NCBI GenBank assembly: GCA_020341795.1
Contig: CP070836.1
Location: forward strand, 704,658-765,338
Source of the DNA: Thermoplasmatales archaeon
GTDB taxonomy: Archaea; Thermoplasmatota; E2; DHVEG-1
Direction of reading: 5' to 3'
Length of the DNA: 60,681 bases
The notes below the pieces were generated by a model. That model saw only the letters and a list, made by a program, of their open reading frames with translations, had not been told where the DNA came from and did no database searches. Shown here piece by piece: positions 2,194 to 31,686 of the stretch (its first letter is position 1; each line of letters begins with the position of its first letter). Position numbers and translations under genes: made by a program.

Positions 2194-2240
2194 TTGGACA
2201 ACTTAATATTTAGTATAAAAATATTGTGTCGATTGTCCAA
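2194..2240. promoter_or_regulatory. Paired TTGnnCAA palindromes, operator between lrp copy 1 and C25 peptidase
   Basis: TTGGACAA at 2194-2201 and TTGTCCAA at 2233-2240 are inverted copies whose starts are 39 bp apart. An AT-rich TATA-like stretch (GTATAAAAATAT, 2213-2224) lies between them. Facing the plus-strand peptidase gene, the proximal copy reads TTGTCCAATTTTTT and is followed by a TATA-like TCTTTTATTAAT, the same layout as at the other five sites. Binding by a tandem-HTH Lrp protein is an inference. Confidence 0.6.
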
Positions 2241-2305
2241 TTTTTTAGAGAAATCTTTTATTAATTTAACATTATTTTTTTAATTATTCTAAGAGGTAGA
2301 AAATT

Positions 2306-4543
2306 ATGAAAAAATATATTATATTTTTTATTTGTTTAATTTTAATTGTTTGCTATATTGATAGTTATGCTTCTTCAATTTCTTATGCTGAAAAAATAAG
2401 AATAAATAATATTCAAATTACAATTGATATTCCTTCTTTTAATGTTATTGAAAAAGATTCTAACCATCAAGTTATTGTTGAAAACTTTGGACGATTATCT
2501 ATTCTAGGTGGACCTATTCTTCCTTCAAGAATTATATCAATTGCTATACCACCAGGTGCAACTTATTCAGATTTTTCTTATGAGTGTAGTGATAGTATAA
2601 TGCTTTCAGGGGATTATATTATCTCACCTCTACCTATTCCCGATATTGCAGATCCAAATCGTATGGAATCTGAATATGAAAATGTATACATAGAAAACTA
2701 TCAGAGAATATATAATAGTGATAATATTTTTCCAGATGAACCAGTTGAATTTATAGATACTTCTAATTTTAGACAATATAATCTTGTTGATTTCAGAATA
2801 TCTCCTTTTTATTATAAGCCATTATCAAATAGCCTTTATTATTATCCCACAATCAAGATCCTTGTCGAATTTGAAGAATCTGAAAACCACCTTGTTTCTA
2901 ATTCTAATATAAAAGAACAAGGATATGTGGATAAAATTGCTCAAAACTATATTATTAACTATTATCAAATAAGTGAATGGTATCAAGATTCATCAATAAC
3001 TAATAATAATCTTTATGATTTTGTAATAATTACACTTGACTCCCTTCAATCATCTATCAACTCTCTAGTTGAGTGGGAAAATGCAAAGGGAAGATCTGTC
3101 AATGTTGTAACAATTTCCTGGATAGATCAAAATTATCAAGGGATTGATCTAGAAGAAAAAATCAGGAATTTTCTAAGGGAAAAATATCCTGTTGATGTCT
3201 GGGGGATTGAAGATGTTTGTATTATTGGTCATTGGGATGATATACCTATGCGAGTGACTGCTCAGCAAATGGCTCTAAATTACAATAATGTTGAGACAGA
3301 TTATTACTATGCTGAGTTATCTTTACCAGATAGTGAGTCTTGGGATCTTGATAGTGATCAACGTTATGGAGAAACCTCTGATTCTATTGATTTTTATGCA
3401 GAGGTAAATGTTGGAAGGATACCTTGGAGTGATCCTGAAATTGTTGAGCAAATTTGTGAAAAATCTGTAGCATATGAGCAGAATAATGAGGATGCATATA
3501 AGAAAAATATCTTACTTCTTGGAGCAATGGTTGATCAAAATACTGATGGTGCGACATTCATGGAATATAAAGTTGATGAGGAAATTCATTTATGGATGAG
3601 TGATTGGTCAAAGACTAAAATGTATGAAAGTGGATCTACCTATCCAAAGGATTATGTTTTGAATAATTTCAATGTTGTAAATATTTGGTCTAAGAGTAAA
3701 TTTGCATTTGTAAGTTGGCATGCTCATGGGTCACCAACTGGTAGTTATGTTGGTAATCATGCTTTCATTTCAGTTGATGATTGCCAAGAGCTTAATGATG
3801 AATATCCAGCGATTATTAGCTCTGCATCTTGTAGTAATTCTGATACTGATTATCTAAACATTGGTCAAGCTATGATAAAGCAAGGTGCTGTTGGTTTTCT
3901 AGGTGCAAATAAAGCAGCTTATTATCGTTCCCAATGGGATGATCCAAATGATGGAAGTGATCAATCTTTGAAATATTTTTTTACAACAGGAATTACATCT
4001 GGAGAATATACTCAAGGGCAAGCTCATCAATATGCATTACGTGAAATGTACAGTAGAGGTCTATGGGATAGACTATATTATGAAACATTTTGTCATGGCT
4101 CACTTTGGGGAAATCCTGACATTGGAATTCTTACAGTTGAAATTAGTAATCCACCAGAGAAACCACAGAGACCCTCTGGTCCATCAACTGGTAAAATTTC
4201 ACAGGAATTAACATTTTTTTCATCCTCGATTGATCCAGATGATGATGATATTTACTATAGGTTTGATTGGGATGATGGAACAAATAGTGGTTGGCTAGGA
4301 CCTTATGAATCAGGGGAAGTTGTAAGTGCCTCTCATACTTGGAATAAAATTGGAACATACTCAATACGTGTTAAAGCGAAAGATATACATGGCACTCAAA
4401 GTGTTTGGTCCGAGCCTCTATCAACCAATATGCCTATTAGTAGAGAAATAAATAAACCATTTCTAAATTTTTTAGAAAATCACCCTTTTATTTATCATTT
4501 AATTCAATTTTTACAAAATAAAATTATCATAAAATATTTTTAA
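2306..4543 (+). CDS. Secreted C25 (gingipain-like) cysteine peptidase with PKD-type domain and sorting-like tail
   Basis: The 745-residue protein begins with a Sec signal peptide (about residues 1-23) and a propeptide-like beta region to about 235. The C25 caspase-like fold then runs to about residue 610, with the catalytic His in WHAHG (H474) and Cys in SSASCSNSD (C509). A PKD-type domain follows (about 614-710; DWDDGTNSGW, SHTWNKIGTYSIRVKAKD). The last 35 residues, after NMPISR, form the hydrophobic tail shared across this island. C25 enzymes are extracellular endopeptidases, often Arg- or Lys-specific, though specificity cannot be read here. A ribosome site AGAGGT precedes the ATG. The paired operator lies directly upstream. 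Confidence 0.9.
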   Translation: MKKYIIFFICLILIVCYIDSYASSISYAEKIRINNIQITIDIPSFNVIEKDSNHQVIVENFGRLSILGGPILPSRIISIAIPPGATYSDFSYECSDSIMLSGDYIISPLPIPDIADPNRMESEYENVYIENYQRIYNSDNIFPDEPVEFIDTSNFRQYNLVDFRISPFYYKPLSNSLYYYPTIKILVEFEESENHLVSNSNIKEQGYVDKIAQNYIINYYQISEWYQDSSITNNNLYDFVIITLDSLQSSINSLVEWENAKGRSVNVVTISWIDQNYQGIDLEEKIRNFLREKYPVDVWGIEDVCIIGHWDDIPMRVTAQQMALNYNNVETDYYYAELSLPDSESWDLDSDQRYGETSDSIDFYAEVNVGRIPWSDPEIVEQICEKSVAYEQNNEDAYKKNILLLGAMVDQNTDGATFMEYKVDEEIHLWMSDWSKTKMYESGSTYPKDYVLNNFNVVNIWSKSKFAFVSWHAHGSPTGSYVGNHAFISVDDCQELNDEYPAIISSASCSNSDTDYLNIGQAMIKQGAVGFLGANKAAYYRSQWDDPNDGSDQSLKYFFTTGITSGEYTQGQAHQYALREMYSRGLWDRLYYETFCHGSLWGNPDIGILTVEISNPPEKPQRPSGPSTGKISQELTFFSSSIDPDDDDIYYRFDWDDGTNSGWLGPYESGEVVSASHTWNKIGTYSIRVKAKDIHGTQSVWSEPLSTNMPISREINKPFLNFLENHPFIYHLIQFLQNKIIIKYF

Positions 4544-4662
4544 TTATCAAATAAGCAGATTCTTGCTAAAATATTTTTTTTTGTTCTGATTCTTTTTTTA
4601 TATAAAATTTTCATAACTAGGAGATTTGTAATAAAAGAAAAAAGTAGATATTTAATAATTAT

Positions 4663-6408
4663 CTAATTTTTTTGAGAAAATATATTGTTAATAATAGGAA
4701 ATCTTAGGCATATATTTTTAAAAGTTTCTATATAATCAAATATTCTAACTGACTTACTTTTTTTTGTTATACTGACACTTAGCGAATCTGACCAGTCACT
4801 CCATACTCCATGCTCATCTTGGGCTCTAACTTTTATATTAAATTTTCCATGTTCATTCCATTTATATGATATTTTAATAGTTTTTCCTGAGGTATAATAT
4901 TCTGTTATTGTTTTGTTTCCGTCTCCCCAGTCAAATAAGTATCTAATTTGACCACCATCTGGTTCGATACTGGAGGTTGAATAACTGTGTACAATATTAA
5001 TTCTTCCAGAAACCGGTCCATCAGGGATACAAGGCCTTTCTGGTGGATTTGAAATAGGAAACAGACTTAATGATGGATCACCATAAAGTGTAGTACCCAT
5101 AAGTGTACTATAGCATCGGTAGATCCATTCTGGGTTGTATTCATTAAACATAAAATAGTTGGAAAAATAAGCTTTTGAATTTCCTAGCGCATCCCCACAA
5201 CCCTGATCATATGAGATGAGGTAATAAAAGAAATAATAATCTATTGATGCAAATCCTCCATCTGATTCATCATTCCAAACTCGGGTAATATTGTAAAATC
5301 CTAGATCAGTTGTTCCAATGTATGCCACTGCCGCATTTTTTTCTATAAACCGCCGTCCCATGTTATTTGGACCATGAAGTTGACTGCATCCACCTGAAAA
5401 AACAATTGGTGGTTTCTCCATTGATAAGACTTGAGCATCATTTCTTGTTAAAATATCTTTGTAGATAAGTTCACCCTGGTTGACTTCTGGAATGTTATCA
5501 CCATCATCATTAACCCATATCCATCGTGCAGCAAGTTGTTCATTTGAATGTCCTACAATGTTAACAATACCATAGTTTTTTGTATATTCAGATAAAACAT
5601 TTGAGTGTTCAAGTGGATATTCATAATCATAGGTTGATGGCCGAAGACCTTCTGCTTCATACATTCTTACACAATTAAAATCTTCAGGGTCAAAGATATC
5701 AATTCGACATTCTTCCATTAGAGTTGCGCAGTCTGATCGGTCATAAACCCATCCATACGATTCTAAACCCTGATAGTAACTAATTGCACCAAGTAAGAGT
5801 GCGTTTTTCTTCCACGCACTATCTCCAGATCCAAAATTCATGATGTTTTCACATATTTGGGCTACAGTATCTTTGCTATCACTTGGAATCCTACCAATTG
5901 ATATCTCAGGAATAAAATCGACATCATCATCTCCATATTCACCAAATATACCGTCTTGGTCAACATCCCAATTTCCAGTTAAATCAGAGTAATAAAAGTC
6001 ATTATAAACATGATCTCCATAATCCCAATCTATTGGATCGCATCTTCTCATTGGAATATTATTACGTGTTCCAACGATTAAAACATAATTTATTTCCCAT
6101 TCTTCGTATTTATCAATTAAAAAGTTTCTAATTTGTTCTGCTAAATCCCTTCCATTATAGTTATCTGAGATCCATGAGATAGTTACTATTTCAACAGTAA
6201 AACCAGGATATTCTTTCCAGGTTTTAAAATCCTTAACTGCATCTTCAAGCTCGGAGGTTGTAATTATAACATAATTTGCTTTTTCTATAGAGCATAAATA
6301 TACTTTAGATGTATTTTGCTGAATTGAAAAAATGCTGTGATTAAAAGCACTGGCAATACACATCTGAGATAAAAAAATCATAACTACTAATATAGTTATT
6401 TTTTTCAT
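4663..6408 (-). CDS. Secreted C25 (gingipain-like) cysteine peptidase with PKD-type domain (second copy)
   Basis: The 581-residue protein has a signal peptide (about 1-20) and goes almost directly into the C25 domain, lacking the long propeptide of the neighbour at 2306. The catalytic pair is read as H287 in IVGHSNEQ and C341 in FSGGCSQLHG. The PERPCIPDGPVSGR linker opens a PKD-type domain (about 450-550; FDWGDGNKT, SYKWNEHGKFNIKVRAQD), followed by KKSKSVRIFDYI and a hydrophobic tail. It is convergent with the peptidase at 2306, and a T-rich gap of about 120 bp lies between the two stops. It is probably a separate transcription unit; no operator pair was found upstream. Confidence 0.88.
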   Translation of the reverse strand: MKKITILVVMIFLSQMCIASAFNHSIFSIQQNTSKVYLCSIEKANYVIITTSELEDAVKDFKTWKEYPGFTVEIVTISWISDNYNGRDLAEQIRNFLIDKYEEWEINYVLIVGTRNNIPMRRCDPIDWDYGDHVYNDFYYSDLTGNWDVDQDGIFGEYGDDDVDFIPEISIGRIPSDSKDTVAQICENIMNFGSGDSAWKKNALLLGAISYYQGLESYGWVYDRSDCATLMEECRIDIFDPEDFNCVRMYEAEGLRPSTYDYEYPLEHSNVLSEYTKNYGIVNIVGHSNEQLAARWIWVNDDGDNIPEVNQGELIYKDILTRNDAQVLSMEKPPIVFSGGCSQLHGPNNMGRRFIEKNAAVAYIGTTDLGFYNITRVWNDESDGGFASIDYYFFYYLISYDQGCGDALGNSKAYFSNYFMFNEYNPEWIYRCYSTLMGTTLYGDPSLSLFPISNPPERPCIPDGPVSGRINIVHSYSTSSIEPDGGQIRYLFDWGDGNKTITEYYTSGKTIKISYKWNEHGKFNIKVRAQDEHGVWSDWSDSLSVSITKKSKSVRIFDYIETFKNICLRFPIINNIFSQKN

Positions 6409-6672: not shown

Positions 6673-6767
6673 AAAAATAGGATAAAAAAATGTTGAAAAA
6701 TAATAAGGATATAAAATTATTTTTGATTTGGCATTCTGAATGATTAATATCATACCTGGTAAAATTA

Positions 6768-11476: not shown

Positions 11477-12691
11477 TTAATGATTAAAAAGACTCATCAT
11501 ATGATTAAATAAATATTCTAAAATTTGTAATAAATAGTTATATTTTTCAATCATGCTCAAAAAAAATCTGTTGATATTTTTAGATTTTGGCATATTTATA
11601 GGTAAAGGTTCTGACCAATCTGTTTCTCCTCCATAAATATCTTTTGCTTTTACTTTGACTTCATAGATTCCTTGTTTGCTCCAATCATGAGATATTCTTA
11701 CAATCTCATCTGAATCATACGGACCTACCCATCCACTATCTGTATTATCACCCCAGTCAAATAAGTATAGTACTCTATCACCATCTGGGTCAGTGGTTTT
11801 AGTAGAATATGTATATTCACTGTTTATCTTACCTGTTGAAGGTCCACTAGGTCGGTTAGGTGTATTCGGAGGATTGTTTTGCTCTTGGGTAAATAAATCC
11901 GGAAGATAATATTCATGCTCTCCTTGTGCTATTTCCTCGTTTACATCAAGTATTACTACATTGTCAAAGTTGTAATAATGATATAGGTACATAATATTAT
12001 TTTGCAGATCAGTTACATAGGAGTATACCGTAGGATAAGTCCCCTCTTGATGAGTAGCATCACATATATCTGTAAAATATTCAACAGTAAGTTCTTGCAT
12101 GTTTTCAAGCATGTTTACTGCAGTTTCATATCTCCAACATGGATACCAACCATGTTCAGGATTTGAGTGAAGGAAATTTGTAACAACCTGAAAGCTACCC
12201 TCTTTATACACTACTTCATCACCTTCAATAATCGCAGAATTACCAAACTGGTCGACAATAAAATACTGAAAATTAGCCATAAAATCAAGGTTATACTGAT
12301 CAAAGATTGCTATAACTTCTTCAACAGTTGAACATCTTTCCATGCAGAATTCCATTAGATCACCATTAAAACGTGGTTTATGACTTGATTCAGTTGGCAC
12401 TAGTTTTGGATGTAGAAAACTATCAAAACAAAGACCTTGATCATTTATCCCCGTAAAAGACACATAATAACTAGGATTCTCAGGAGGCCAACCAAATTCG
12501 ATATAAAGCCTTCCGTACTTATCTTGTTCAGCAGGATGTACTCTAATATAAGGATCTGGATCATACCAATCTTCATTATTTCCAAATAAAACCAAATCTC
12601 CTTCTTGTGCTGTAAAACCTGTACAGGCTATAACAGTTCCTTGAAAAAAAATAACAATTGTAGCTATTAGAAGCATTATTATTTTTTTCAA
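11477..12691 (-). CDS. Secreted Ntn-type amide hydrolase (choloylglycine/acyltransferase-like) with PKD-type domain
   Basis: The 404-residue protein has a signal peptide ending at VIAC, which places Cys23 (ACTGFTA) as the first mature residue. That is the expected N-terminal nucleophile of Ntn hydrolases in the linear-amide C-N hydrolase group. NNEDWYDPDPYIRVHPAE carries the conserved N-x-D and Arg region, and SAIIEGDEVVYKE a core strand pair. A PKD-type domain follows (about 273-365; FDWGDNTDSGW) and then the tail NMPKSKNINRFFLSMIEKY. It likely cleaves C-N amide bonds in peptides or acyl-amides outside the cell. It is the last gene of a three-gene run with the papain-like peptidase and the 149-residue protein. 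A relative with two PKD domains is at 15839. Confidence 0.83.
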   Translation of the reverse strand: MKKIIMLLIATIVIFFQGTVIACTGFTAQEGDLVLFGNNEDWYDPDPYIRVHPAEQDKYGRLYIEFGWPPENPSYYVSFTGINDQGLCFDSFLHPKLVPTESSHKPRFNGDLMEFCMERCSTVEEVIAIFDQYNLDFMANFQYFIVDQFGNSAIIEGDEVVYKEGSFQVVTNFLHSNPEHGWYPCWRYETAVNMLENMQELTVEYFTDICDATHQEGTYPTVYSYVTDLQNNIMYLYHYYNFDNVVILDVNEEIAQGEHEYYLPDLFTQEQNNPPNTPNRPSGPSTGKINSEYTYSTKTTDPDGDRVLYLFDWGDNTDSGWVGPYDSDEIVRISHDWSKQGIYEVKVKAKDIYGGETDWSEPLPINMPKSKNINRFFLSMIEKYNYLLQILEYLFNHMMSLFNH

Positions 12692-12726: not shown

Positions 12727-14136
12727 TTACAGATAAATATTATCTGTTAGATGGTTAAATAATCGTTCTAAAACTGGTTGTAGATGATTATATTTTTCAA
12801 TTATTTTTAAAAATGGCGTGTTGATTGTTTTGGTCTTTGGCAAGATAATTGAAATTGTTGTCCAGTCGCTTTGACCTCCCCATACATCATGAGCTTTAAA
12901 TTTGATTTGATAGCGTCCCAATCTACTCCAGGTATGAGTTAACGTAACTTCTTCCCCTGAATTATATGGACCAAGGTATTTCTCATTTGTTCCATCATCC
13001 CAAACAACAGTATAGTACACAGGATCATCGTCTTCATCTATTGAACTTATTGTATAATCATATTCAACATTAACTCCACCATACGTCGGACCATTAACAA
13101 TAGGTGAGCTTGGCCTATTAGCTTCATCAGGCCAATCAAAGCTATCTAAATCATAATCAACCCAGTCTATAAGATAACCTGTAAACAAAGCTCCATATTC
13201 AATATTGTAAAAACCATCATATCCCCAGTTTTGCCCCCAACTGTTTTTACAAATCCAATATCCACCATTTCCAATTGATATATCATCCTTCCATCCTAAT
13301 ATTACAATCTCATGATTTAACACTTCAAAAGTCCTTTCTTCATATGGCCAATAATCAGTAGGATCATGATTTTCAAAACCCCATTGATGGAAAACATTAG
13401 GATTCAAAGGAACATACATATATGCAGCAACTGGTCCTTTATCCATAATTAAAGATTTAATTCTCTCCCTGTTTTGTGGGCTGTCATGTCCAATTGAAAT
13501 CTGACCGCAATCAAGTATTGGTACAAGTCTTTCATCCCAACCTTCTCTAATATGCGAACAATAAACATCATCACTTGCTAGATAAGGAAAAAACGATTCA
13601 AAAACTGCACCATTTACATTATTCCCCTCTGGGGTTGTCTCCATGATTCTTTTAAAAACCATATATGCCATACCACCACTGCAACCTTCACCAGGTATAA
13701 GAGCAGCCTCAGGAAGACAAGAAAGCACATATTGCTCAGAAAAATCAGGATCAATATCATCCCGATCTTCCCTGATTTTAATCAGGCTTTCAAGAGCACC
13801 CATAGCAGAAAAAATACCACAACTACCACAATTCCCTTGACTTTTAGCAGGAGTAGAATAATCCTTACCATCCATATTCATCCAACTAAATTCAGCAGGA
13901 GTATCAACAATAGTAATATCATAAACACTTGAGTCAATATTTATTGAGTCAATAGGAATAGGTTTCATAGTAGGAAAATCAACATCAAAATTATAGTCAA
14001 TATATGTGTTTTCAACTTTTTCACAATCGCAACTGGAAGAAGTGTTGCTATGATTATATCCTGAAGCTATTCCAGATACGATAAAAAGTAAAATAATTGA
14101 AAATACCAAATATTTTTTAAAAATATTATTTGTCAT
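12727..14136 (-). CDS. Secreted papain-like (C1A) cysteine peptidase with PKD-type domain
   Basis: The 469-residue protein has a signal peptide (about 1-25), a very short prosegment, then the C1A domain. The oxyanion Gln and nucleophile are in KSQGNCGSCG (Q100, C106), the catalytic His in LNHEIVILGW, and Asn in CKNSWGQNWGYDGFY. A PKD-type domain (about 345-430; VVWDDGTNEKY, THTWSRLGRYQIKFKAHD) and the shared tail (LPKTKTINTPFLKIIEKY) follow. The lack of an I29-type propeptide is unusual for papains. The gene sits between the 149-residue secreted protein and the Ntn hydrolase with gaps of about 20 and 35 bp, so one operon is likely, controlled by the operator pair at 14680-14726. Confidence 0.9.
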   Translation of the reverse strand: MTNNIFKKYLVFSIILLFIVSGIASGYNHSNTSSSCDCEKVENTYIDYNFDVDFPTMKPIPIDSINIDSSVYDITIVDTPAEFSWMNMDGKDYSTPAKSQGNCGSCGIFSAMGALESLIKIREDRDDIDPDFSEQYVLSCLPEAALIPGEGCSGGMAYMVFKRIMETTPEGNNVNGAVFESFFPYLASDDVYCSHIREGWDERLVPILDCGQISIGHDSPQNRERIKSLIMDKGPVAAYMYVPLNPNVFHQWGFENHDPTDYWPYEERTFEVLNHEIVILGWKDDISIGNGGYWICKNSWGQNWGYDGFYNIEYGALFTGYLIDWVDYDLDSFDWPDEANRPSSPIVNGPTYGGVNVEYDYTISSIDEDDDPVYYTVVWDDGTNEKYLGPYNSGEEVTLTHTWSRLGRYQIKFKAHDVWGGQSDWTTISIILPKTKTINTPFLKIIEKYNHLQPVLERLFNHLTDNIYL

Positions 14137-14156: not shown

Positions 14157-14606
14157 TTAGATTAATCTAGGTTTAGCAAATAAAGCATTTCCATTAATTT
14201 GCACATTTAATAATCCATCTACACTTGTTGGAATATATTCTCCCCAAAATCCAACAATTACAAGATGGACCTCTTCACCGCCTTGATGATCCCATAATAT
14301 ATCTCCATTTTCCTCTGAATAAATCGTTACATCAGAGTCAGATTGAAAAACAAGCCTCCAAAAAGACACAAAAGCCTGCATTTCATCTTTAAAAGGTCTA
14401 AACCAGAATGTTTTCCACATGTTAGGCATTCTAATAATTGCAAACCAATCATCAATCGAGATTTTACCATTTGATTCAATATAACATCCGTTATAAAATC
14501 TTGTGGGCATTTCATTTGTTGATTCATATTCTTTAGCCAAAGAAAAAGATGCAAATGCAACTGATAAAAACATCACCACAACCATATATGTCAAAATTTT
14601 TCTCAT
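14157..14606 (-). CDS. Small secreted protein of unknown function
   Basis: The 149-residue protein has a signal peptide cleaved near SFSLAKE (about residue 25). The mature part is rich in aromatic residues (MPNMWKTFWFRPFKDEM, VSFWRLVF) and beta strands, and carries no PKD domain or sorting tail. It is the first gene of the run leading to the papain-like peptidase, about 20 bp upstream of it, so a chaperone, inhibitor or propeptide-in-trans for that peptidase is conceivable but unproven. Confidence 0.65.
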   Translation of the reverse strand: MRKILTYMVVVMFLSVAFASFSLAKEYESTNEMPTRFYNGCYIESNGKISIDDWFAIIRMPNMWKTFWFRPFKDEMQAFVSFWRLVFQSDSDVTIYSEENGDILWDHQGGEEVHLVIVGFWGEYIPTSVDGLLNVQINGNALFAKPRLI

Positions 14607-14679: not shown

Positions 14680-14726
14680 TTGAACAATTTATTAACAAAC
14701 ATAATAAAATAATTGTTTTTGTTCAA
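14680..14726. promoter_or_regulatory. Paired TTGnnCAA palindromes upstream of the papain operon
   Basis: TTGAACAA (14680-14687) and TTGTTCAA (14719-14726) are perfect inverted copies 39 bp apart start to start. Read toward the minus-strand operon, the proximal copy continues TTGTTCAATTTTTTATAAAAT, putting a TATA box immediately downstream and suggesting an activator position. Confidence 0.65.
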
Positions 14727-14757: not shown

Positions 14758-15768
14758 TTAATGAAGTGGCATATATTGAACTTTATAAATCTTCTTAATG
14801 TAAAAATAATGATATTTTTTAACTAAATTTGGAAAAGAATCAATTATATCGTTAATAATTTCTAAAATATGCTGTAGATTTTTCACATAAAACTCAAGTT
14901 CAACATCGGCCATTCCTGTGGTTTTATCAATAAAAATTAAATGAGGATTATATTTAATGTATGAAATAAGAGAGTTTTTTTTAGAATAATCATTTAAATC
15001 AATATCTAACTTATAATAAACATAATCAAGCTTTGAATAATCTATCTGAATCCGATAACCAAGAATCACATTCAAATTTTTCAATCTTTTAATTCTTTTT
15101 TGAATAGTTTTACTAGTAATCCCTAGTTTTTTTGCTATTTTTATTGTTTCAATTCTTGAATTATCTGCAAGAAAACGTAAAATCTTCATATCAATATCAT
15201 CATAGTTAACAAACTTTCCTCCACCTGTGATTTCAAATTTGTTTCTATCAACCTTATTTAAATCATCTAATAAAAAAGAATAACGATAATGGTGTAATTG
15301 TGTATAAACTGAAAAAATCTGTTTATCAAAATATTTACGATATTTACTTAATGTTTTTTCCCAAAATGCATAAAAATCATTAATATTTTTTACCCATAAT
15401 ACAATAACAATATCAAATCTACCTTCTGTTTTACCTACCCACCAGGTGTATATATCATCTACAAAATATTGAATGATTTCATTTTGAATTCTTTGATTAA
15501 TATTTTCAAATGTTAAATAAATTCTGAAACTAATATAACCAAGTTTAAAAGAATCAATAACAGTATAAAAATTCTTAATAATCCCCTTTTTTTGGAGTTG
15601 TTTAATCCTATATGAAATCTTTGTTTTTGGTTGACCAAGCTTCCTTGATATCTGTGAAAAAGACTGTCTTGAATTTAAATCTAATTGATATAATATTTTC
15701 CTATCTATTTTATCAATATTTTCCATATTATAAAACGTATAGGTATAATTGTTAATATTTTTTACCAT
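14758..15768 (-). CDS. Tandem Lrp/AsnC-type transcriptional regulator (copy 2)
   Basis: The 336-residue protein repeats the layout of copy 1: first HTH at about residues 19-66 (DRKILYQLDLNSRQSFSQI), ligand-binding-like region, then a second HTH at about 193-240 (DDIDMKILRFLADNSRIET) and a second ligand-binding-like region. An N-terminal extension of 14 residues precedes ENIDKIDRKIL, so the ATG at 15726 is an alternative start. It lies between the papain operon, whose operator pair is just beyond its 3' end, and the Ntn hydrolase at 15839, from which it is divergent. Weak half-sites ATGTACAA (15769) and GTATTCAA (15798) in that gap are 29 bp apart. Confidence 0.86.
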   Translation of the reverse strand: MVKNINNYTYTFYNMENIDKIDRKILYQLDLNSRQSFSQISRKLGQPKTKISYRIKQLQKKGIIKNFYTVIDSFKLGYISFRIYLTFENINQRIQNEIIQYFVDDIYTWWVGKTEGRFDIVIVLWVKNINDFYAFWEKTLSKYRKYFDKQIFSVYTQLHHYRYSFLLDDLNKVDRNKFEITGGGKFVNYDDIDMKILRFLADNSRIETIKIAKKLGITSKTIQKRIKRLKNLNVILGYRIQIDYSKLDYVYYKLDIDLNDYSKKNSLISYIKYNPHLIFIDKTTGMADVELEFYVKNLQHILEIINDIIDSFPNLVKKYHYFYIKKIYKVQYMPLH

Positions 15769-21562: not shown

Positions 21563-23254
21563 TCATAGACCAAAAAGCTGACTTAAAATTGGAAAGATAT
21601 TCACTAATCTTCCAAACAAATGATTAAATAACAATTGCTTGCTTTTTGGCATACTAATAGCAAGTGGATCTGACCATTCGCTTTCAAGACCAGCTGAATC
21701 CTTTGCTTTTACTTTAAGACTGTAATCTCCTCTCTCAGTCCAAGTATGTGAACCACTACCTGTTTCTCCAGAGTTATATGGACCGACTTCACTTGTGTCA
21801 CCATCTCCCCAGTCAAATATATAATATATTTGATCTCCATCTAAATCTGTAGTAGATGTAGTATAGGTATGCTCTCTATTTATTCCACCTGATGTTGGTC
21901 CATTTGGTCTTGCAGGTTTTTCTGGTGGTGTTCCGACTAATGAAAAGAAAATTTCACGATTTTCATTGCTTCCATCAGTCCAAACAACGTAAGAACCTGA
22001 AACATCTAATGAATATTCTTCTTCGACAACAGTTCCACTGTTATCGTTTATAATTGAAAATTCATTCCAAGTTTGACCACCATCATTTGATTTTGCATAG
22101 TAAAGATTACCATCTCTAGTATAAGTACATAGTGCTGATTGTCCAACAGATGAAACTTTTGGATTCTGTCCATTTACTACAACAGTGCTAGTCTCCATTG
22201 TCTCACCATTATCATTTGTGTAATAGCAGACTATATCCCCTTCTAACTCTGCAACAACATAACAGTAGCCAGCGTTGGCTGATAAATCTGGATTATGAGC
22301 ACCTTCAAAAATATAGCCAGGCCAATCATTCTCCCACCAGTCTTCATTTCCAGGTTCAACCCAGCAGTATTCAAAGAAAACACCATCTTCTAACTCAAGA
22401 TCTGGATCATTACTTAACTCCATAGCTTCATAATAGGTCTCAGTTGAAACGTCAATATCCACAGCAATAGTATCACCAAGTTGTCCTGTGAATGCTAAAT
22501 AACATGCACCGATGCTACCATCAGTAGTTTCATAATAATTCTCTATAGTCTCACCATATGAACTATCACCAATAAGAGTTAAAATACCATGAAAATCAAT
22601 AGCAGGAGCATTTTCACCATGTGGATAACCAGCAATATCCATTGCATAGTAATCATTAAAATCTACTGTTATCTGCCAAAAAGTCCAACCCTCAGAATCC
22701 TTATATACAACAGTAGGATCAGTCATACTTGGAAAATGAATGAAATAAACAGTACCAGTTAAATCAGGTAAACAAGTACCATATGCTTCAAATTCATTAT
22801 TTTCACAATAATCAACAACTGGTTTTGTCTCCATAACATCCTCCGTTGCAAAATCAAATATTATATCACTCCAAGAGGTTCCACCATTTGAAGAATATGT
22901 TAACAACAAATCTGATGTAAAAATTCCCTGATATTCTTCTCCTATAGCTAAAATATCATTTCCATTTGATGTAATAGCAGGATTTTGACAATCCATATCT
23001 GTTCCAATAATTGGGATATTTTCACTATATGACATTGTGTAAATATTTTTTATGTCAATTTTCTCTTTCATCAGTGTTCTACTATCTGATCTTTTTTCAT
23101 TAACAACACGTTTAATAATTCCCTCAGATATGCTATTTTCATATGATTGGTTTGTTGTAGACATAGCACCTATCTGAATTGCAGTCATACATAGAGTAGA
23201 TAAAACCGCGAAAACCACTAGCCTCCTAAATAATGCTTTTTTCTTTCTTAACAT
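21563..23254 (-). CDS. Secreted BNR-type beta-propeller protein with PKD-type domain
   Basis: The 563-residue protein has a long signal sequence (basic MLRKKKALFRRL, then a hydrophobic run to about 30). Asp-box motifs typical of BNR/sialidase-like propellers recur: SSNGGTSWSD, TNDNGETMET and SNDGGQTWNEF. No sialidase catalytic set is visible, so binding to extracellular polymers or cells is more likely than hydrolysis. A PKD-type domain (about 445-530; FDWGDGDTSEVG, SHTWTERGDYSLKVKAKD) and the tail MPKSKQLLFNHLF..FPILSQLFGL follow. The stop is TGA, and the tail ends there as in its relatives, so TGA terminates here. A paralog without PKD is at 23506. Confidence 0.8.
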   Translation of the reverse strand: MLRKKKALFRRLVVFAVLSTLCMTAIQIGAMSTTNQSYENSISEGIIKRVVNEKRSDSRTLMKEKIDIKNIYTMSYSENIPIIGTDMDCQNPAITSNGNDILAIGEEYQGIFTSDLLLTYSSNGGTSWSDIIFDFATEDVMETKPVVDYCENNEFEAYGTCLPDLTGTVYFIHFPSMTDPTVVYKDSEGWTFWQITVDFNDYYAMDIAGYPHGENAPAIDFHGILTLIGDSSYGETIENYYETTDGSIGACYLAFTGQLGDTIAVDIDVSTETYYEAMELSNDPDLELEDGVFFEYCWVEPGNEDWWENDWPGYIFEGAHNPDLSANAGYCYVVAELEGDIVCYYTNDNGETMETSTVVVNGQNPKVSSVGQSALCTYTRDGNLYYAKSNDGGQTWNEFSIINDNSGTVVEEEYSLDVSGSYVVWTDGSNENREIFFSLVGTPPEKPARPNGPTSGGINREHTYTTSTTDLDGDQIYYIFDWGDGDTSEVGPYNSGETGSGSHTWTERGDYSLKVKAKDSAGLESEWSDPLAISMPKSKQLLFNHLFGRLVNIFPILSQLFGL

Positions 23255-23422: not shown

Positions 23423-23468
23423 TTGAACAAAATTAAATTTTTCTTAAGAAAAATTTAATAATGTACAA
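23423..23468. promoter_or_regulatory. Paired TTGnnCAA-type sites and leader of the beta-propeller gene
   Basis: TTGAACAA (23423-23430) and ATGTACAA (23461-23468) start 38 bp apart. Read toward the gene at 23254, TTGTTCAATT is followed about 20 nt later by TTTTATATTTTTTT. The remaining leader of about 130 nt holds a hairpin CGATTTA/TAAATCG (near 23317-23340). The operator, TATA spacing and leader closely resemble those of the paralog at 25155. The second site overlaps no gene but lies just past the 3' end of 23506. Confidence 0.6.
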
Positions 23469-23505: not shown

Positions 23506-25155
23506 TTATAATCCACGAACGAAGAATAATAGTATACTTGCGCTTCTTGATTCTGATATTTCATCTACATTTATTGTTATATCTGTGCTACCAAATCCAA
23601 TTAAGAATTTTGATTTTATTTCAACTGATTGACCTACTGCTAGGGTACTTATTGTTCCACTGTTATCTCCACCAAAAAAGACTCCGCCGTCAAAGGAAAT
23701 ACCCCAGTCAACATTGTTTGCATCTGCTGTTCCAATATTTTTCACTACAGCTGTTACACCTAATCCACCTGATATGCTTTCTATATTAATGATTGGCATT
23801 GCTATTCCTGCTGTATCGTAATATACACTGTTTTCACCATCTCTATTATCTGTCCATACTATATTACTACTTGATACATCAACACAATGGTATTGCTCAA
23901 TAGCACTATTGTCTACATCATTAACGGAAACAGGTGATTCAATCCAAGTATTTCCACCGTCTTCAGATATAGAATTGTAAATATTTCCATTTCTTATATA
24001 TACAACAACAATATTTTGACCAATTAATGATACACTTGGATACTTAGCATTTTCTACAATATTGACACTATTAAATGTGTCACCATTATTATTTGAATAA
24101 TGACATCCGATACCACCATCTATTTCATATACTAAATAACATTTGCCATTAGCTGCTTTTATATCTGGATTTTCTGCTCCAGGAATATGTACTAAAGTTT
24201 CCCAAGAATCGACCCATCCATCAGTACCATCAAGTTGAACACCTCTTACGAATACTCCATCAGGGTATGATTCTGGACTTTCATCATTAAATCTATAAAA
24301 TGCCTGATAATACATGCCTGTTGAAAGATCTACATCATTAGTGGCTTGATCTGCATCAAAATCAAACTCTGTATCACCTTCATCAGGATAAACAACAAAT
24401 TCAGTTCCATCAGTTCGTTCCCATCCAAACCAAAGTCCATTTTCAATTTCATCATTTATTGTATTACCAGTCCAAATAGCTAGGCCATAAGAAAATTCAG
24501 TTGGTGCATATTCACTATTTACTCCACATGCATCGGCACTACTCCAATGAGACATCATAACATCAGCAAGCCAACCATTAGCAATCCATTCACCCTCAGC
24601 ATCAGGATCAACAATATCAGGGAAATTAAATGTAACCCAATTATTTTGCTCATAAGGTAGAATAGTTCCAAAAGCATCACCTTCACCTGAAAAATCAATT
24701 GATGGTAAAACTGAAAAATAACCAGCATCAGCTAAATTCCATCCAGTTGCACTGTCTTCAGGTAACCAAGTTGCTCCTCCATCATTTGAATATCTAAAAT
24801 ATGGATCTGCTAACGTAAGCCAATCCGGCCAATATTCAAAACCGACTAATATATTCTGTCCATTATTATCTGTTATACTTGGATTTTGAATTATTGATTC
24901 TTCAAATGCACCATAAATTAAGGTGTCAGTATCTAATATACCGATATTAGTGTGAATTTTAGAATTCAAATTTTTATATATTTTTTTTGGTTGAATATTT
25001 TCTGCTTTTTGAAAAATACATCTAGGTTTTTTTGATTCATTTTCTTTTATTGAACTTGTTGATATTACACTTAGCTGTATTGCTGTTATAAAAAACATCA
25101 ATACAATCGAGAAAACCACCAGCCTCTTATATATTGTTTTTTTCTTCCTTAACAT
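23506..25155 (-). CDS. Secreted BNR-type beta-propeller protein with CARDB-like C-terminus
   Basis: The 549-residue protein is a paralog of the gene downstream, sharing the start MLRKKKxxxxRLVVF and Asp-box repeats ([33 protein letters not shown]). In place of a PKD domain it has a beta-sandwich resembling CARDB (about 450-530; [18 protein letters not shown]). It ends in a short hydrophobic [12 protein letters not shown], different from the MPKSK tail. The two genes are probably transcribed separately, since each has its own operator-like pair and leader. It is likely cell-surface; the ligand is unknown. Confidence 0.78.
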
Positions 25156-25329: not shown

Positions 25330-25375
25330 TTGAACAAATATAAAAAATATTGTAATAAACCTTATAAATGTACAA
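25330..25375. promoter_or_regulatory. Paired TTGnnCAA-type sites upstream of the second beta-propeller
   Basis: TTGAACAA (25330-25337) and ATGTACAA (25368-25375) start 38 bp apart, identical in sequence and spacing to the pair at 23423. Toward the gene, TTGTTCAATT is followed by TATTATATATTTTTT. The leader has an imperfect hairpin (AAACGA..TTAAA / TTTAA..TCGTTT, near 25222-25250). The whole gap 25156-25575 is noncoding: this promoter, AT-rich sequence, and the hairpin at 25452. Confidence 0.62.
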
Positions 25376-26358: not shown

Positions 26359-26404
26359 TTGAACATAATCAAAATATTTATATGCTGAATTTGAATAAGT
26401 ACAA
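26359..26404. promoter_or_regulatory. Paired TTGnnCAA-type sites between lrp copy 3 and the PKD-protein genes
   Basis: TTGAACAT (26359-26366) and AAGTACAA (26397-26404) start 38 bp apart. A TATA-like ATATTTATATG (26374-26384) lies between them, so for the plus-strand regulator the second site covers the likely transcription start, a repressor position. For the minus-strand genes the first site lies upstream of a TATA-like TCTTATTTTT. Confidence 0.55.
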
Positions 26405-26416
26405 TAAATAAGGGTA

Positions 26417-27391
26417 ATGAAAATGCAGGATTTAGACTCAAAAGACCATAAAATATTATACCATCTTTTCCTTAACTCAAGAGAATCATTATCTGCAATA
26501 GGTAAAAAAGTAGGATTACCTAAAACAGTAGTTAAATATAGAATCGATCGTCTTGTAAATGAACAGATAATTCAAAATTTCAATGCAATGATAGATGTAT
26601 TTAGATTAGGATATTCAGTATATCGACTAAACTTTGTTTTTCAATATGCATCACCTGAAAAAGAAAAGGAAATAATTGACTATTTTGTTAATTATAAAAA
26701 TACATGGAGTGCATCATCAGCAAAAGGCAGATATGATTTTACAGCAACAATTCTTGTAAAAAATCCTAGTGATTTTTACTCTTTTTACGAAGAAACACTA
26801 AAACTATTTAGATATTATCTTAAAGAAATTGACTTCTCACAACTCTACGAAAGATTTGGTTACAAACATGCAACTCTTTTCACAGAGCTCCCACATACTC
26901 AAGAAAAAGCTTATGAATATAGATTTACTGGAAAAATAGTAGATATAGATAATATAGACTATCAAATACTATGTATGCTTGCAGAAAACTCAAGAATACC
27001 CAGCGTTGAAATAGCAAAAAAAATTAATATGACATCCACAACTATAATTAATCGAATTTCAAATCTTATTAAAGAAGGAATAATTCAGAGATATTCAATA
27101 TCAATCGATACAATTAAACTTGGATATAAACCATTTAATGTAAATCTATCCCTTAGAAACTATAATAAAAAAAACTATATTATAAACCATCTTAGCAGTA
27201 TTCCTTTCATATGGGAAATACATAAGGCTGTGGGAGGATATGATTTAGAATTATCAGTTTTCACATTAAACTTTGAACACTTTCATAAATTAATGGAAAA
27301 TATTAGAAATAAATTCCCGGATGATATTACAAACTATGATTATCTTTATGTAACAAAAATACATAAAACTAATTTTCTTCCAGAAAAATAA
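26417..27391 (+). CDS. Tandem Lrp/AsnC-type transcriptional regulator (copy 3)
   Basis: The 324-residue protein has the same double Lrp layout as the copies at 1222 and 14758. The first HTH is at about 6-53 (DHKILYHLFLNSRESLSAI), the second at about 178-225 (DNIDYQILCMLAENSRIPS), each followed by a ligand-binding-like region. All three paralogs end in a motif close to YKxxYMP or HKTNFLPEK, which marks them as one family. It is divergent from the PKD-protein genes and shares an operator pair with them, consistent with autoregulation. It marks the end of the secretome island. Confidence 0.87.
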   Translation: MKMQDLDSKDHKILYHLFLNSRESLSAIGKKVGLPKTVVKYRIDRLVNEQIIQNFNAMIDVFRLGYSVYRLNFVFQYASPEKEKEIIDYFVNYKNTWSASSAKGRYDFTATILVKNPSDFYSFYEETLKLFRYYLKEIDFSQLYERFGYKHATLFTELPHTQEKAYEYRFTGKIVDIDNIDYQILCMLAENSRIPSVEIAKKINMTSTTIINRISNLIKEGIIQRYSISIDTIKLGYKPFNVNLSLRNYNKKNYIINHLSSIPFIWEIHKAVGGYDLELSVFTLNFEHFHKLMENIRNKFPDDITNYDYLYVTKIHKTNFLPEK

Positions 27392-27398
27392 ATTTTTT

Positions 27399-27776
27399 TT
27401 AACTTTTATTTAATACTTTGTCGATTCTAGCTTTTAGCTCATCGATATCAACTGGTTTTTCAATGTAATCATCAGCGATCATAGAACCTGCTTTTGCTGC
27501 AAATCCATCAGATCGAGCAGTTAGAAATATCACTGGTATGTTTTTATATTTTGGATTTGCTCGAAGTTTATCAAAAACTTCCCATCCATCCATTTTAGGC
27601 ATCATAATGTCTAATAAAATAAGATCAGGTTTAATATTTTTCTCTAAAAGTTCAAAACACATCTTACCACTTTCTGCACCTATTATCTCAAATTCTTTAG
27701 GATAAGCGTTTTCAAAACCTATTTTAACAGAGAAAATCTGATCCTTTTCATCATCCACAAGTATTATTTTTTTCAT
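27399..27776 (-). CDS. CheY-like response regulator (receiver domain only)
   Basis: The 125-residue protein is a single receiver domain. It shows the acidic pair D8-D9 (LVDDEKDQ), the phospho-acceptor D56 (LLDIMMPKMDGW), the conserved Thr (FLTARSDG) and Lys (DDYIEKPVD). There is no output domain, so it acts through a protein partner. It lies 32 bp downstream of the histidine kinase on the same strand and is presumably its target. Confidence 0.92.
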   Translation of the reverse strand: MKKIILVDDEKDQIFSVKIGFENAYPKEFEIIGAESGKMCFELLEKNIKPDLILLDIMMPKMDGWEVFDKLRANPKYKNIPVIFLTARSDGFAAKAGSMIADDYIEKPVDIDELKARIDKVLNKS

Positions 27777-27807
27777 ATCTATCAGACCTATACAACTTAT
27801 TTATTTA

Positions 27808-29457
27808 TCAATTTTTCTTACTTTTTCTATCATTATAAATTGGTAATGTGAAAAATACTGTAATTCCTTTATTAAGACCTGGACTTTCAATCCATATTTT
27901 TCCATTATGTCTTTCAACTATTTTCTTTGATATAGTCATTCCAAGTCCACTACTATGAAAATCATGTCGCGATTCATCAGCCTTATAAAACTCATCAAAT
28001 GCATGTTTAATTTGAGTTTTTGTCATACCTATCCCATTATCTTTAATTGATATTTTTACAAAATCACCTTCAATTTCTGTATTAAGAGCTATAACACCTT
28101 TCTCTTTAGAATATTTTATGGAATTTTCAACTAAATTAGTAAAAAGCTCTTCTAATCTAAGCTTATCAGCATCAACTTCAATTTTATTTTTAACATTATG
28201 TGTAATTCGGATTTTTTTACTGTCAAATAATGGTTTTTTATTATTTATGAAATTCTTTATCAATGATTTCAAATCAACTTTCTGATATGAAAATCTGGTT
28301 TTTGGAGAATTTAGTTTAGCTAACTCAAGAGTTTTTATGGCTATATTTTTCATATATTCAACATTTCTTTTTAAAACCTCATAAATCTCCCGTTTTTTAG
28401 GATTTGATTCTTGTTTTTCAAGGATTGGAAGTAGAATTGTAAGAGGCATTAAAGGAGTTTTTAAATCATGACTAAGTTGATTTATAAATTCATCTTTTTG
28501 TTTAAGTAAAACCTCAACTTCTTTTGTTCTTTCTTTAATTCTTTTCTCAAGAGTTTTATTTAATTTATCAAGCTCTTTTCTAGCTTTAATTAAATCTTTA
28601 TTTATTTTTTCAAGATTAGTTGTTTTATCTTCTAGTTCCTCTGTTCTTTTTGTAACAAGAATTTCAAGATTCTCACTATATTGCTTAAGCTCGTCTTGGG
28701 ATTTTTTAAGGTCAATACTTAGTTTATTAAATGTCTCAGCTAACTCACCAATTTCATCATTTGATTTAACTTTACTTTCAAGACCTAATTTTCCCTTACC
28801 CATTGCTCGAACTCCTTTAATTAAAACTCCGATAGGTGATGTAATAAAACGGTTAAATAAAATAAATATTAAAATAAATGAGATAATAATAAAAATACCT
28901 GCATAAATCAATAATGTACTATACATCTCTTGTTGCTGATGATCTAAATTTGAAAGTGAAAAAATAAATCTAACAGAATAATCATGGCGATCCCATTCAT
29001 CAAAATATGGTACAATAATATCTATATTGTTTCCAGTTTTATTAATAACCTTAGAAAGTGTAAAAGCACTAGATCTATCAGTATTTTCTTCATCAAGAAA
29101 CCTTTCACCTTCAAGGACTTCTTTATGTTGACCTTCGATAATTTCATCTGAATCAAAAAATATTTTTCCATTAACGTCAAGTATTTGAATTTGAGTAATA
29201 TCTTTATTTAATTTCATTAAATTATCAATAAATTCACTAAACTTTAGAAAACCAATACCTTTTTCATAATCCTTAAAATAATCTATATAAGTATTAATTG
29301 ATAAACTAGCATAGGATTCAGAGTTATTAATTAATGTATTTTTTGCATCATTATATTCTCTATCAATTATAAGAAATGAACTTGTAAAAAACACAATAAT
29401 TAAGATGAATAAAACGGGTAAAACAATCTTTATATTTAAACTAATAAATTTATTCAC
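27808..29457 (-). CDS. Membrane sensor histidine kinase with HAMP domain
   Basis: The 549-residue protein has two membrane helices (about 8-28 and 178-200) enclosing an extracellular sensor region, a HAMP domain (about 200-252) and a coiled coil (about 255-320). The HisKA box NQLSHDLKTPL carries H330, and the HATPase shows N (NLVENSIKYS), G1 (DNGIGM) and G2 (GLGMTISKKI) boxes. It starts with GTG, preceded by GGAG. The stop TGA is followed immediately by TAA. It lies between the response regulator and a peptide-binding lipoprotein, so it may sense peptide binding outside the cell. Confidence 0.92.
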   Translation of the reverse strand: MNKFISLNIKIVLPVLFILIIVFFTSSFLIIDREYNDAKNTLINNSESYASLSINTYIDYFKDYEKGIGFLKFSEFIDNLMKLNKDITQIQILDVNGKIFFDSDEIIEGQHKEVLEGERFLDEENTDRSSAFTLSKVINKTGNNIDIIVPYFDEWDRHDYSVRFIFSLSNLDHQQQEMYSTLLIYAGIFIIISFILIFILFNRFITSPIGVLIKGVRAMGKGKLGLESKVKSNDEIGELAETFNKLSIDLKKSQDELKQYSENLEILVTKRTEELEDKTTNLEKINKDLIKARKELDKLNKTLEKRIKERTKEVEVLLKQKDEFINQLSHDLKTPLMPLTILLPILEKQESNPKKREIYEVLKRNVEYMKNIAIKTLELAKLNSPKTRFSYQKVDLKSLIKNFINNKKPLFDSKKIRITHNVKNKIEVDADKLRLEELFTNLVENSIKYSKEKGVIALNTEIEGDFVKISIKDNGIGMTKTQIKHAFDEFYKADESRHDFHSSGLGMTISKKIVERHNGKIWIESPGLNKGITVFFTLPIYNDRKSKKN

Positions 29458-29477
29458 CTTATAATCGACTCCAAATC

Positions 29478-31061
29478 CTAATCTAATTTGATATCTTCAA
29501 TTAAAATTAACATATTATTACTTGGTTGCCAGCTTATACCATCTACAACACCATAAACAAGTTTTGATGAAAGCAAAGGAATCCATGCAACATCTTCCAT
29601 GGCTATTTCAAATCCTTCCTGCATTAATTTTAATCTTTCTTGATAATCCATCATATAAGTAATTTCTTCACCGATTCTATCAACTTCAGGATTGGAATAA
29701 TAACCCAAATTAAACGTTCCAATACCTGCTTCAGGATCAACTGATCTAATTATATAATCATATATTTCACCACCATCACCTGTAGCTGCCATCCAACCAA
29801 GAATAAAACATGTAGTATTTCTCATACATATTTTATCATAATACTCACCTATTGGAAGAGGATTCAGTGAAAAATTTATTATTTTTGATATTTGTTCATC
29901 TAAAACTTTGCAAATCCTAGTATGTGTAGAAGTTTCCTGAACACAATCTAAAACTAAATCAAAACCATCACTATAACCTGATTGATTTAAAAGTTCTCTT
30001 GACAAATTTAAATCATAGGGAAGTCTAGTTATATTAGGATTATATCCAAATATTAAAGGTGTTAAGAATTGAGACGCAGGTTCAGCAAATATAGAATTAT
30101 TAAAAACTCTTTTTATTATCTCTTCAATATTTATTGCATGATAAATGGCTTTTCTTACTCTTACATCAGATAATGGATTCTTTTCATCTGGAGCACCTTT
30201 TAAAGAACAATTTTCCCTAAAATCAAAACTAATATATGTAACAGTTGGATGGGTAATAAGATATAAATTTATTCCAGGTATTGTTGAAAGGTTATCATAT
30301 TCAAGTGCTTCTAAATGTTCAACAATATCAACTTCTCCGTTAATAAATGCGTTTCTTCTTACATCACTATTTTCAATAAATTTAAATGTAGCTTGTTTAA
30401 CATCGGGTATTTCTTTCCAATACTCATCAAATCTCTCAAGTATTAAGGAATCATCTTTAAAAATTTCAACAACTTTATAGGCACCTGTCCCTATCGGCCA
30501 TTTCTTTATTGTTTCTTCCTGGTATTTTTTAGATACAATAAAAATATCAGTCAATTTATTTAACAAAATTGGATATGGTTCATGAGTAATTATATCTACT
30601 GTATAATCATCGATAACTTTTGTTTCTTTTACTGATATTAATAAATCCCGTAAGACATTACTTTCATTATTTAAAATTATATCAATGCTATATTTAACAT
30701 CCTCAGCAGTTAAATCATAACCATTATGAAATTTTACATTTTTCCTAATTCTAAATCTCCATGTTGAATTATCAGGATTATTCCATGATTCTGCAAGCTC
30801 AGCTTTTACCCTAAAAAGATCATCAAAACTAACTAATGAGTTAAAGATATTATGATTTATTGAAATTGAACAAACATCATAGCTTGTATGCCAAGGATAA
30901 AAACCATAAGCTGGATTCCCAACTCCAATAACAATATCCTTTTTAATAGGATTATTTTTAGTATTTTCATTTTGGTTTGTAAGACATCCTGATGTGCTTA
31001 ATATAATAACTATGGATATTAGTAGAACAATCAAAATTTTAGTATTGCTATCGTAATTCAT
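29478..31061 (-). CDS. Oligopeptide-type solute-binding lipoprotein, without transporter genes
   Basis: The 527-residue protein is a family 5 extracellular solute-binding protein. It has a lipobox (STSGC, Cys26), and SWNNPDNSTWRFRIRKNVKFHNG followed by LTAEDVKYSI is the family signature. No permease or ATPase gene follows in the window. It is 20 bp upstream of the histidine kinase on the same strand, so it is likely a binding partner feeding a signal to the kinase rather than only a transporter part. The ribosome site AAGGGAG precedes ATG. A role in peptide uptake with permeases encoded elsewhere remains possible. Confidence 0.88.
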   Translation of the reverse strand: MNYDSNTKILIVLLISIVIILSTSGCLTNQNENTKNNPIKKDIVIGVGNPAYGFYPWHTSYDVCSISINHNIFNSLVSFDDLFRVKAELAESWNNPDNSTWRFRIRKNVKFHNGYDLTAEDVKYSIDIILNNESNVLRDLLISVKETKVIDDYTVDIITHEPYPILLNKLTDIFIVSKKYQEETIKKWPIGTGAYKVVEIFKDDSLILERFDEYWKEIPDVKQATFKFIENSDVRRNAFINGEVDIVEHLEALEYDNLSTIPGINLYLITHPTVTYISFDFRENCSLKGAPDEKNPLSDVRVRKAIYHAINIEEIIKRVFNNSIFAEPASQFLTPLIFGYNPNITRLPYDLNLSRELLNQSGYSDGFDLVLDCVQETSTHTRICKVLDEQISKIINFSLNPLPIGEYYDKICMRNTTCFILGWMAATGDGGEIYDYIIRSVDPEAGIGTFNLGYYSNPEVDRIGEEITYMMDYQERLKLMQEGFEIAMEDVAWIPLLSSKLVYGVVDGISWQPSNNMLILIEDIKLD

Positions 31062-31166
31062 AATTTAAACTCCCTTAGTTTAATAGAAGTGAATCTTTCT
31101 ATTAAAATATTAGGTTTTTTATGCATCATATTTAAATGAATAACAATTTTTTTTATTTTTAATCTA

Positions 31167-31508
31167 CTAAGTATTTTTATTTTCAAATATTATTGAAAAT
31201 ATTTTTTTTTCAGCTTTTCTTAATAGCTCCAACGTTTTATCTATATTAATACCTACTTTTTCTGATAGCTCCTGATGTGTTATTTTACGAGGGTAATCGT
31301 AATAACCATGTTTTTTTGCCAAATTTAATATTTTTTTCTGGTTAATTGAAAGATTAGAAAGAATATCACAATCCTTATATTCTAATTTTTGAATTTTTAT
31401 ATCTTTAATAGTTCCAAAAATATCAATTGCTTTAAAAAATTTTTCAATACTCTCATCATCACCTTTTATTATATAGATATTTTTTTTTGACTTAGCCAAT
31501 ATAATCAC
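31167..31508 (-). CDS. Bacterio-opsin-activator-type HTH protein (HTH_10)
   Basis: The 113-residue protein has a short N-terminal domain and a C-terminal HTH (about 60-110: LSINQKKILNLAKKHGYYDYPRKI, then THQELSEKVGI) typical of the bat/HTH_10 group. That group is largely archaeal, usually with a longer sensor domain. It is divergent from the flavin-binding protein at 31773 and shares the operator-like pair at 31641-31686. Lying just upstream of the binding-protein, kinase and regulator run on the same strand, it may regulate either side. Confidence 0.8.
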   Translation of the reverse strand: MIILAKSKKNIYIIKGDDESIEKFFKAIDIFGTIKDIKIQKLEYKDCDILSNLSINQKKILNLAKKHGYYDYPRKITHQELSEKVGINIDKTLELLRKAEKKIFSIIFENKNT

Positions 31509-31640
31509 TCCATTTTAAATCTGATAATGTATTATAATTGAGTAATTGCTCCATCCTAATTATCATTTATAATTTCTCCAAATTTATTTATATACATAAT
31601 GTTTAAAATATATCAAATCATAAAATTTATTTTGTAAGAG

Positions 31641-31686
31641 TTGAACAGAATAGAAAAAATATTGTATAATTCTTGAAATTGTTCAA
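31641..31686. promoter_or_regulatory. Paired TTGnnCAA-type sites between HTH_10 gene and flavoprotein gene
   Basis: TTGAACAG (31641-31648) and TTGTTCAA (31679-31686) start 38 bp apart. Toward the plus-strand gene the second copy runs directly into TTTATATATAATTC, a TATA-like stretch. AATATTGT occurs between the copies here and at the pairs at 2194 and 25330. The remaining gap 31509-31772 holds nothing else I can support. Confidence 0.6.

Follow-up and report, generated by a model that had tools for sequence, protein, structure and literature searches.

A fixed-geometry 46/47-bp operator at secreted-protein and tandem Lrp genes of MBG-D archaea, and its predicted regulon

The window, a stretch of 60,681 nucleotides from contig CP070836.1 of a Thermoplasmatales archaeon, contains three genes for tandem Lrp proteins, a set of genes for peptidases and other exported proteins, and six paired repeats which an earlier note had read as paired TTGnnCAA operators in promoter gaps. 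All six are found at the positions that were given for them, and all six are indeed intergenic, 5' of genes for exported proteins or regulators. The features are as follows.

1222..2190, minus strand: tandem Lrp1, 322 aa, two AsnC-type HTH + RAM units (Pfam, model)
2194..2240: operator 1, 47 bp, TTGGACA...TGTCCAA, between the divergent Lrp1 and C25 genes
2213..2220, minus strand: probable Lrp1 TATA box TTTTATAC, within operator 1, about 26 bp from the ATG; presumably leaderless
2256..2265, plus strand: probable C25 TATA box, at +16 to +25 counted from the edge of operator 1
2306..4543, plus strand: exported C25 (gingipain-like) peptidase with PKD domain, predicted target of operator 1
11477..12691, minus strand: PKD protein with a weak acyl-transferase (AAT) match, probably third gene of the operator 2 unit
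12727..14136, minus strand: papain-family (C1) peptidase, probably under operator 2 too, 20-bp gap to the preceding gene
14157..14606, minus strand: small exported protein, leading the probable three-gene unit
14680..14726: operator 2, 47 bp, TTGAACA...TGTTCAA, 73 bp 5' of the exported gene at 14606
14758..15768, minus strand: tandem Lrp2, 336 aa (Pfam); no clear operator of its own found
21563..23254, minus strand: exported PKD protein, predicted target of operator 3 at 168 bp, long 5' leader
23423..23468: operator 3, 46 bp, minus-strand TATA at about +17 to +25
23506..25155, minus strand: exported protein, predicted target of operator 4 at 174 bp
25330..25375: operator 4, 46 bp, minus-strand TATA at about +16 to +25
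26359..26404: operator 5, 46 bp, one mismatch, 12 bp 5' of Lrp3
26417..27391, plus strand: tandem Lrp3, 324 aa, of a clade present in seven genomes
31167..31508, minus strand: small HTH_10 regulator (bacterio-opsin activator-type HTH), probable target of operator 6
31641..31686: operator 6, 46 bp, canonical TATA spacing towards the HTH_10 gene
31773..32210, plus strand: PNPOx-family flavoprotein, divergent from operator 6, which may or may not be a target

Operator 1 lies 3 bp from the Lrp1 ATG and 65 bp from the C25 gene at 2306, an arrangement that recurs in G001 (L058). The candidate targets in the window are the C25 gene at 2306, the unit 14606-11477, the genes at 23254 and 25155, Lrp1, Lrp3 and the HTH_10 gene at 31508. 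Beside Lrp3, at 27399-31061, are genes for a receiver-only response regulator, a HAMP histidine kinase and an oligopeptide-binding SBP_bac_5 protein, in the same order as in G001 (L256); these may convey a peptide signal to the protease regulon. A run of redox genes at 34048-41699 (FAD oxidoreductases, a CCG-domain and HdrA-like ferredoxin protein, a radical SAM protein) is outside the regulon.

Each half of a pair had been said to deviate at most once or twice from its palindrome: exact TTGNNCAA pairs occur only at 2194 and 14680, the pairs at 23423, 25330 and 31641 have one deviation, and the pair at 26359 (TTGAACAT/AAGTACAA) has three. The reading of each pair as two TTGnnCAA palindromes gives way to that of a single inverted repeat of TTGWACA, 46/47 bp long: of 66 half-sites, 65 have A as base 5, a proportion favoured by the search pattern itself. 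The operator is best described as TTGWACA-N32/33-TGTWCAA, 46 or 47 bp overall. TTGNNCAA alone is not enriched (41 against 36 expected). Searched in the wording of the earlier note (at most one mismatch, spacings 38 and 39), the window contains six pairs against 1.2 ± 1.1 in shuffles, a modest signal reached by 1 of 500 shuffles, and one of the real pairs (7838) is intragenic. TTGNACA-N32/33-TGTNCAA has five exact occurrences against 0.026 expected, a number that none of 500 shuffles equals, and the sixth site, at 26359, differs from it by one mismatch. Pooled half-sites have an A/T-rich centre without a conserved inner element, though the Lrp3 promoters had hinted at one, so that contacts of a second HTH are not visible.

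The fixed spacing holds genome-wide and in relatives. With TTGNACA/TGTNCAA pairs collected at gaps of 17-47 (31 lengths) and the reversed pattern as control, 9 of 17 pairs in the genome have a total length of 46 or 47 (p = 2.9e-7); the reversed control gives three, and the off-length pairs are mostly intragenic. One-mismatch sites inside coding sequence were counted as background. The same lengths account for 18 of 24 pairs in G006 (p = 3.5e-17) and 8 of 11 in G034 (p = 4e-8). The relatives compared include the Thermoplasmata MAGs M9B1D, SG8-52-3 and SM1-50; most of the 60 scanned have no excess at 46/47 bp, nor does the rest of the class outside the family. Identical 46-bp copies of one imperfect operator are found at G000:C1 513322 and 860774 (L022, L029), of which the latter is clearly 5' of an exported gene and the former has no downstream gene that could be found. 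At G006:C1:850030-850529 (L127), two operator copies 454 bp apart flank a broken Lrp3 orthologue, which suggests a local duplication.

Eight of the nine exact sites in the genome lie 61-174 bp 5' of genes for exported proteins, and the ninth precedes the small HTH_10 regulator, whose gene carries the operator in G020 and G026 also. The exported products comprise C25 gingipain-like, papain, caspase-like and PKD proteins together with small secreted proteins; beyond the window there are four exact sites, one of them 5' of a gene for a C25 peptidase, one 5' of a gene for a caspase-like PKD protein and two 5' of genes for small exported proteins. Intergenic, A/T-rich sites with one mismatch precede further exported proteins at 430591, 503660, 568022, 860774 and 1258667, and one such intergenic site, at 1606885, has no exported protein downstream. 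The sequence evidence supports the proposal that this is the operator of a secreted-protein regulon, and the predicted regulon reaches beyond the window. Extracellular peptidases have been catalogued for MBG-D / Thermoprofundales and are highly expressed in metatranscriptomes; in M9B1D, one of the bins concerned, the C25 gene of M9B1D_scaffold_577 is among the most highly expressed peptidases (PMC6461988). On G001:C247 (L254), a C25 peptidase gene and a tandem Lrp gene share one contig.

The position of the operator relative to the promoter is more tightly fixed than its position relative to the gene. Across 28 promoters of exported genes, the start codon lies between 57 and 85 bp from the operator, and in the same promoters an A-tract (about +10 to +16) and a TATA element (about +16 to +24) are fixed relative to the operator edge. 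When 23 non-redundant promoters are aligned by this edge, the best eight columns contain 4.6 bits, against 1.8 ± 0.2 for random shifts, of which none in 1000 is as high; alignment by start codon gives only 1.8 bits. Column information was used because a fixed-matrix TATA scan, which places 17 of 38 in the expected 8 positions, is noisy in A/T-rich DNA. The locking of TATA to the operator edge holds across genera, and the hallmark of Ptr2-type sites, an operator placed directly before BRE/TATA with little freedom in its distance, is present in the 23 non-redundant promoters. At regulator genes (seven promoters) 3-12 bp separate the operator from the start codon, and the operator has a TATA-like stretch inside it, which is consistent with leaderless or short-leader mRNAs. 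Hence there are two placements, 5' of the TATA element at target genes and over it at regulator genes, where checked.

Each of the three proteins contains two stretches matching AsnC-type winged HTH domains (PF13404/PF13412, E 1e-20 to 1e-24); the RAM domain (PF01037) is above cut-off in Lrp2 and Lrp3 and is not reported for Lrp1, of which the monomer model (mean pLDDT 79.6) has two alpha/beta repeats and matches Lrp structures. Instead of a single HTH-RAM unit of about 150 aa, there are two units per chain of 322-336 aa. Identity as siroheme decarboxylases was considered and rejected, the AhbA/AhbB profile scores of the window proteins being 25-40 bits against cut-offs of 125-140. The genome contains 29 matches to the tandem-Lrp profile, about 15 of them full-length, and in the papers searched no tandem or fused Lrp regulator is described. 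Full-length tandem Lrps are also found in DPANN archaea (Woese-, Pace-, Nano- and Micrarchaeota; L223-L235, L238, L239).

Within the family, 79 tandem-Lrp promoters were gathered, 13 of which have a TTGNACA-type operator directly 5' of the gene and near its start codon. These 13 include Lrp3 orthologues in four further genomes, and the broken Lrp3 orthologue of G006 is also preceded by an operator; altogether the 46-bp operator is kept at Lrp3 orthologues in G000, G001, G006 (the broken gene), G020, G026 and G027, at 12-51 bp from the start. Across all 79 promoters, the inverted-repeat score plotted against length is greatest at 46/47. Swapping left arms among promoters provides a control that preserves position-specific composition, and against this control repeats of 45-48 bp at tandem-Lrp starts are strongly overrepresented (z = 8.3, 54 non-redundant genes), even once the TTGNACA-like genes are removed (z = 6.3). 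No comparable effect is seen at 33-40 or 57-60 bp by the same control, and that at 53-56 bp is weaker (z about 3). The half-sites of paralogues differ (TCTGCAAAA, TCGACAAAA, TTCTACAAA, TTGTACAAA), with arm pairs such as TCTGCAAAA/TTTTGCAGA, TCGACAAAA/TTTTGTCGA and TTCTACAAA/TTTGTAGGA, and in many of the tandem-Lrp promoters a clear inverted repeat of their own is not seen. A genome scan for the generic form KRCAAAA/TTTTGYM gives no excess (32 against 36 in the control), so the operators of the other paralogues look local. A divergent-side ORF is present at 61 of the 79 genes, 36 of these ORFs having a hydrophobic N-terminus, on mechanical calls of which some are spurious.

Several tandem-Lrp clades have characteristic neighbours. 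One (L089, L091-L094, L100, L150, L153-L155, L159, L161) is divergent from a conserved gene whose product starts ...LLISMPFAG..IPSIQL, which we take to be perhaps a B12-binding radical SAM protein, and others adjoin purF-like (MCGIIGIIG) or zinc-ribbon (CVECGKKLG) genes. The tandem Lrps of DPANN archaea have no length peak at 46/47, and among them only L223 has an obvious similar inverted repeat (TTAACAAAA...TTTTTGTTAA, 45 bp).

The suggested link between the operator and the tandem Lrps is likewise supported by the sequence, in that several of these proteins carry the operator before their own genes and are its predicted binders. The residue after the lysine of the N-terminal recognition helix is N, T or S in all 13 TTGNACA-type Lrps, compared with 22 of 66 others (Fisher 5.6e-6); this link is confounded with kinship and could be explained by ancestry, since too few phylogenetically independent pairs are informative. 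Helices of the type SKDVVASRV pair with CGACAAA operators in branches separated in the tree, which is suggestive of a match between helix and operator. As several tandem Lrps per genome bear a TTGNACA operator, the responsible protein is not unique. In G034, which has eight sites, a clean TTGNACA operator is not seen at any tandem Lrp gene; the closest one has two mismatches.

The interpretation that we favour is that tandem Lrps bind these operators as two-point clamps, and that one subset of them probably controls the secreted-protease regulon of MBG-D; the binding protein, its stoichiometry and the sign of regulation are what we infer from the sequence. Two HTH-RAM-HTH-RAM chains would clamp an operator, one on each TTGWACA arm, the arms being 39-40 bp apart, in a symmetric complex with four HTHs; the symmetry of the arms and the tandem form of the protein are the grounds for proposing two chains. 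Because the two placements match two known Lrp modes, activation of secreted-protein genes and autorepression of regulators would be expected. At the former, the operator would be an upstream activating site with its edge about 16-17 bp before TATA, from where the bound protein could help to recruit TBP/TFB; at the regulator's own gene it would cover the TATA element of a leaderless or short-leader promoter and shut it down. Where divergent genes share a single operator, as the Lrp1 and C25 genes do, it could do both. The TTGWACA regulon would then comprise extracellular proteases, other exported proteins, Lrp1, Lrp3 and the small HTH_10 regulator, and paralogous tandem Lrps would use the same geometry with other half-sites for local autoregulation and for control of the divergent neighbour.

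That the same protein might repress the secreted-protein genes instead of activating them is possible but unlikely. Lrp-type proteins do either, depending on the site (PMC2995911), and the sign is not visible in sequence; however, the whole operator of exported genes lies 5' of BRE/TATA, at a distance that does not vary, as described for activation by Ptr2, LysM and Ss-LrpB (PMC2995911), and at Lrp genes it covers TATA. It seems improbable that another regulator of the cluster (the HTH_10 protein, the response regulator with its partner, or a single-unit Lrp) reads the operator and the tandem Lrps are mere members of the regulon. The operator is found at the HTH_10 gene in three genera (G000, G020, G026), and the receiver-only response regulator and histidine kinase adjoin Lrp3 here and in G001, but this reading leaves unexplained the private repeats of the same length and different sequence at the starts of tandem-Lrp paralogues.

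Two further explanations concern the repeats themselves. In a genome of about 70% A/T, where A-tracts are common to promoters, pairs might arise by chance or as a by-product of promoters in which a fixed distance separates a BRE 'CAAAA' from an initiator 'TTTTG', and genome-wide there is no excess of the generic KRCAAAA...TTTTGYM pattern. This is nevertheless very improbable given the shuffles, the gap-length spectrum, left-arm swapping and the retention of operator 5 in six genomes; for the TTGNACA type, a chance origin is refuted by left-arm swapping, the gap-length and TATA statistics and the shuffles. Hardly credible at all is a role of the sites as termini of a small mobile element or as transcribed hairpins, which their fixed-length inverted repeats and the identical copies at 513322 and 860774 might suggest: the sequence between the arms is not conserved, and where the sites occur depends on promoters. 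At target genes the operators would not be transcribed, because they are upstream of TATA, and unconserved interior and TATA position together rule this candidate out.

The proposed regulation concerns a group of archaea that are among the most widespread protein degraders of marine sediment and that are, as far as the literature consulted shows, uncultured. Their peptidases are listed in the literature, in which no regulator was found described for them; the concrete operator, the candidate regulators and the list of targets now make in vitro tests possible that need no culture. The chances seem about even that the tandem-Lrp paralogues of MBG-D are separately addressed regulators sharing a rigid 46/47-bp geometry, each with half-sites and a promoter of its own and, as a rule, a divergent neighbour, and that one such address has spread to the protease programme. 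Since Lrp sites are usually too degenerate for prediction, a natural family of tandem Lrps with matched operators would offer a route to decoding DNA recognition by Lrp helices.

The peptidase inventory of PMC6461988 covers the same organisms and the same families (C25, C1A, C14 and PKD proteins); a term search finds no mention in it of Lrp or transcriptional regulators, and the predicted regulon is new here. The nearest solved tandem-Lrp fold to the Lrp1 model is 4ch7 (E 3e-12, TM 0.45, 12% identity), of the NirDL / AhbAB type, but these are enzymes, siroheme decarboxylases, and not regulators. Among regulators, Lrp activators are reported to bind just upstream of BRE in a highly constrained position (PMC2995911). 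Ptr2, LysM and Ss-LrpB share with the present system the AsnC-type HTH and RAM, the constrained site before BRE and multiple regularly spaced sites (PMC2995911); they are single-unit proteins of about 150 aa, in contrast to the present tandem fusions of about 320 aa, and the operator found here has the form of a single inverted repeat, its arms 39-40 bp apart. Negative autoregulation from beside the TATA box is reported for Pyrococcus furiosus LrpA (PMC2995911), and an Lrp protein at its own promoter near TATA is predicted here too. LrpA, however, borders TATA downstream and blocks RNA polymerase, whereas here the arms flank TATA on both sides. Judged from these patterns in the DNA, the fixed-geometry operator system is real, is wider than the window and is a new variation on Lrp regulation.
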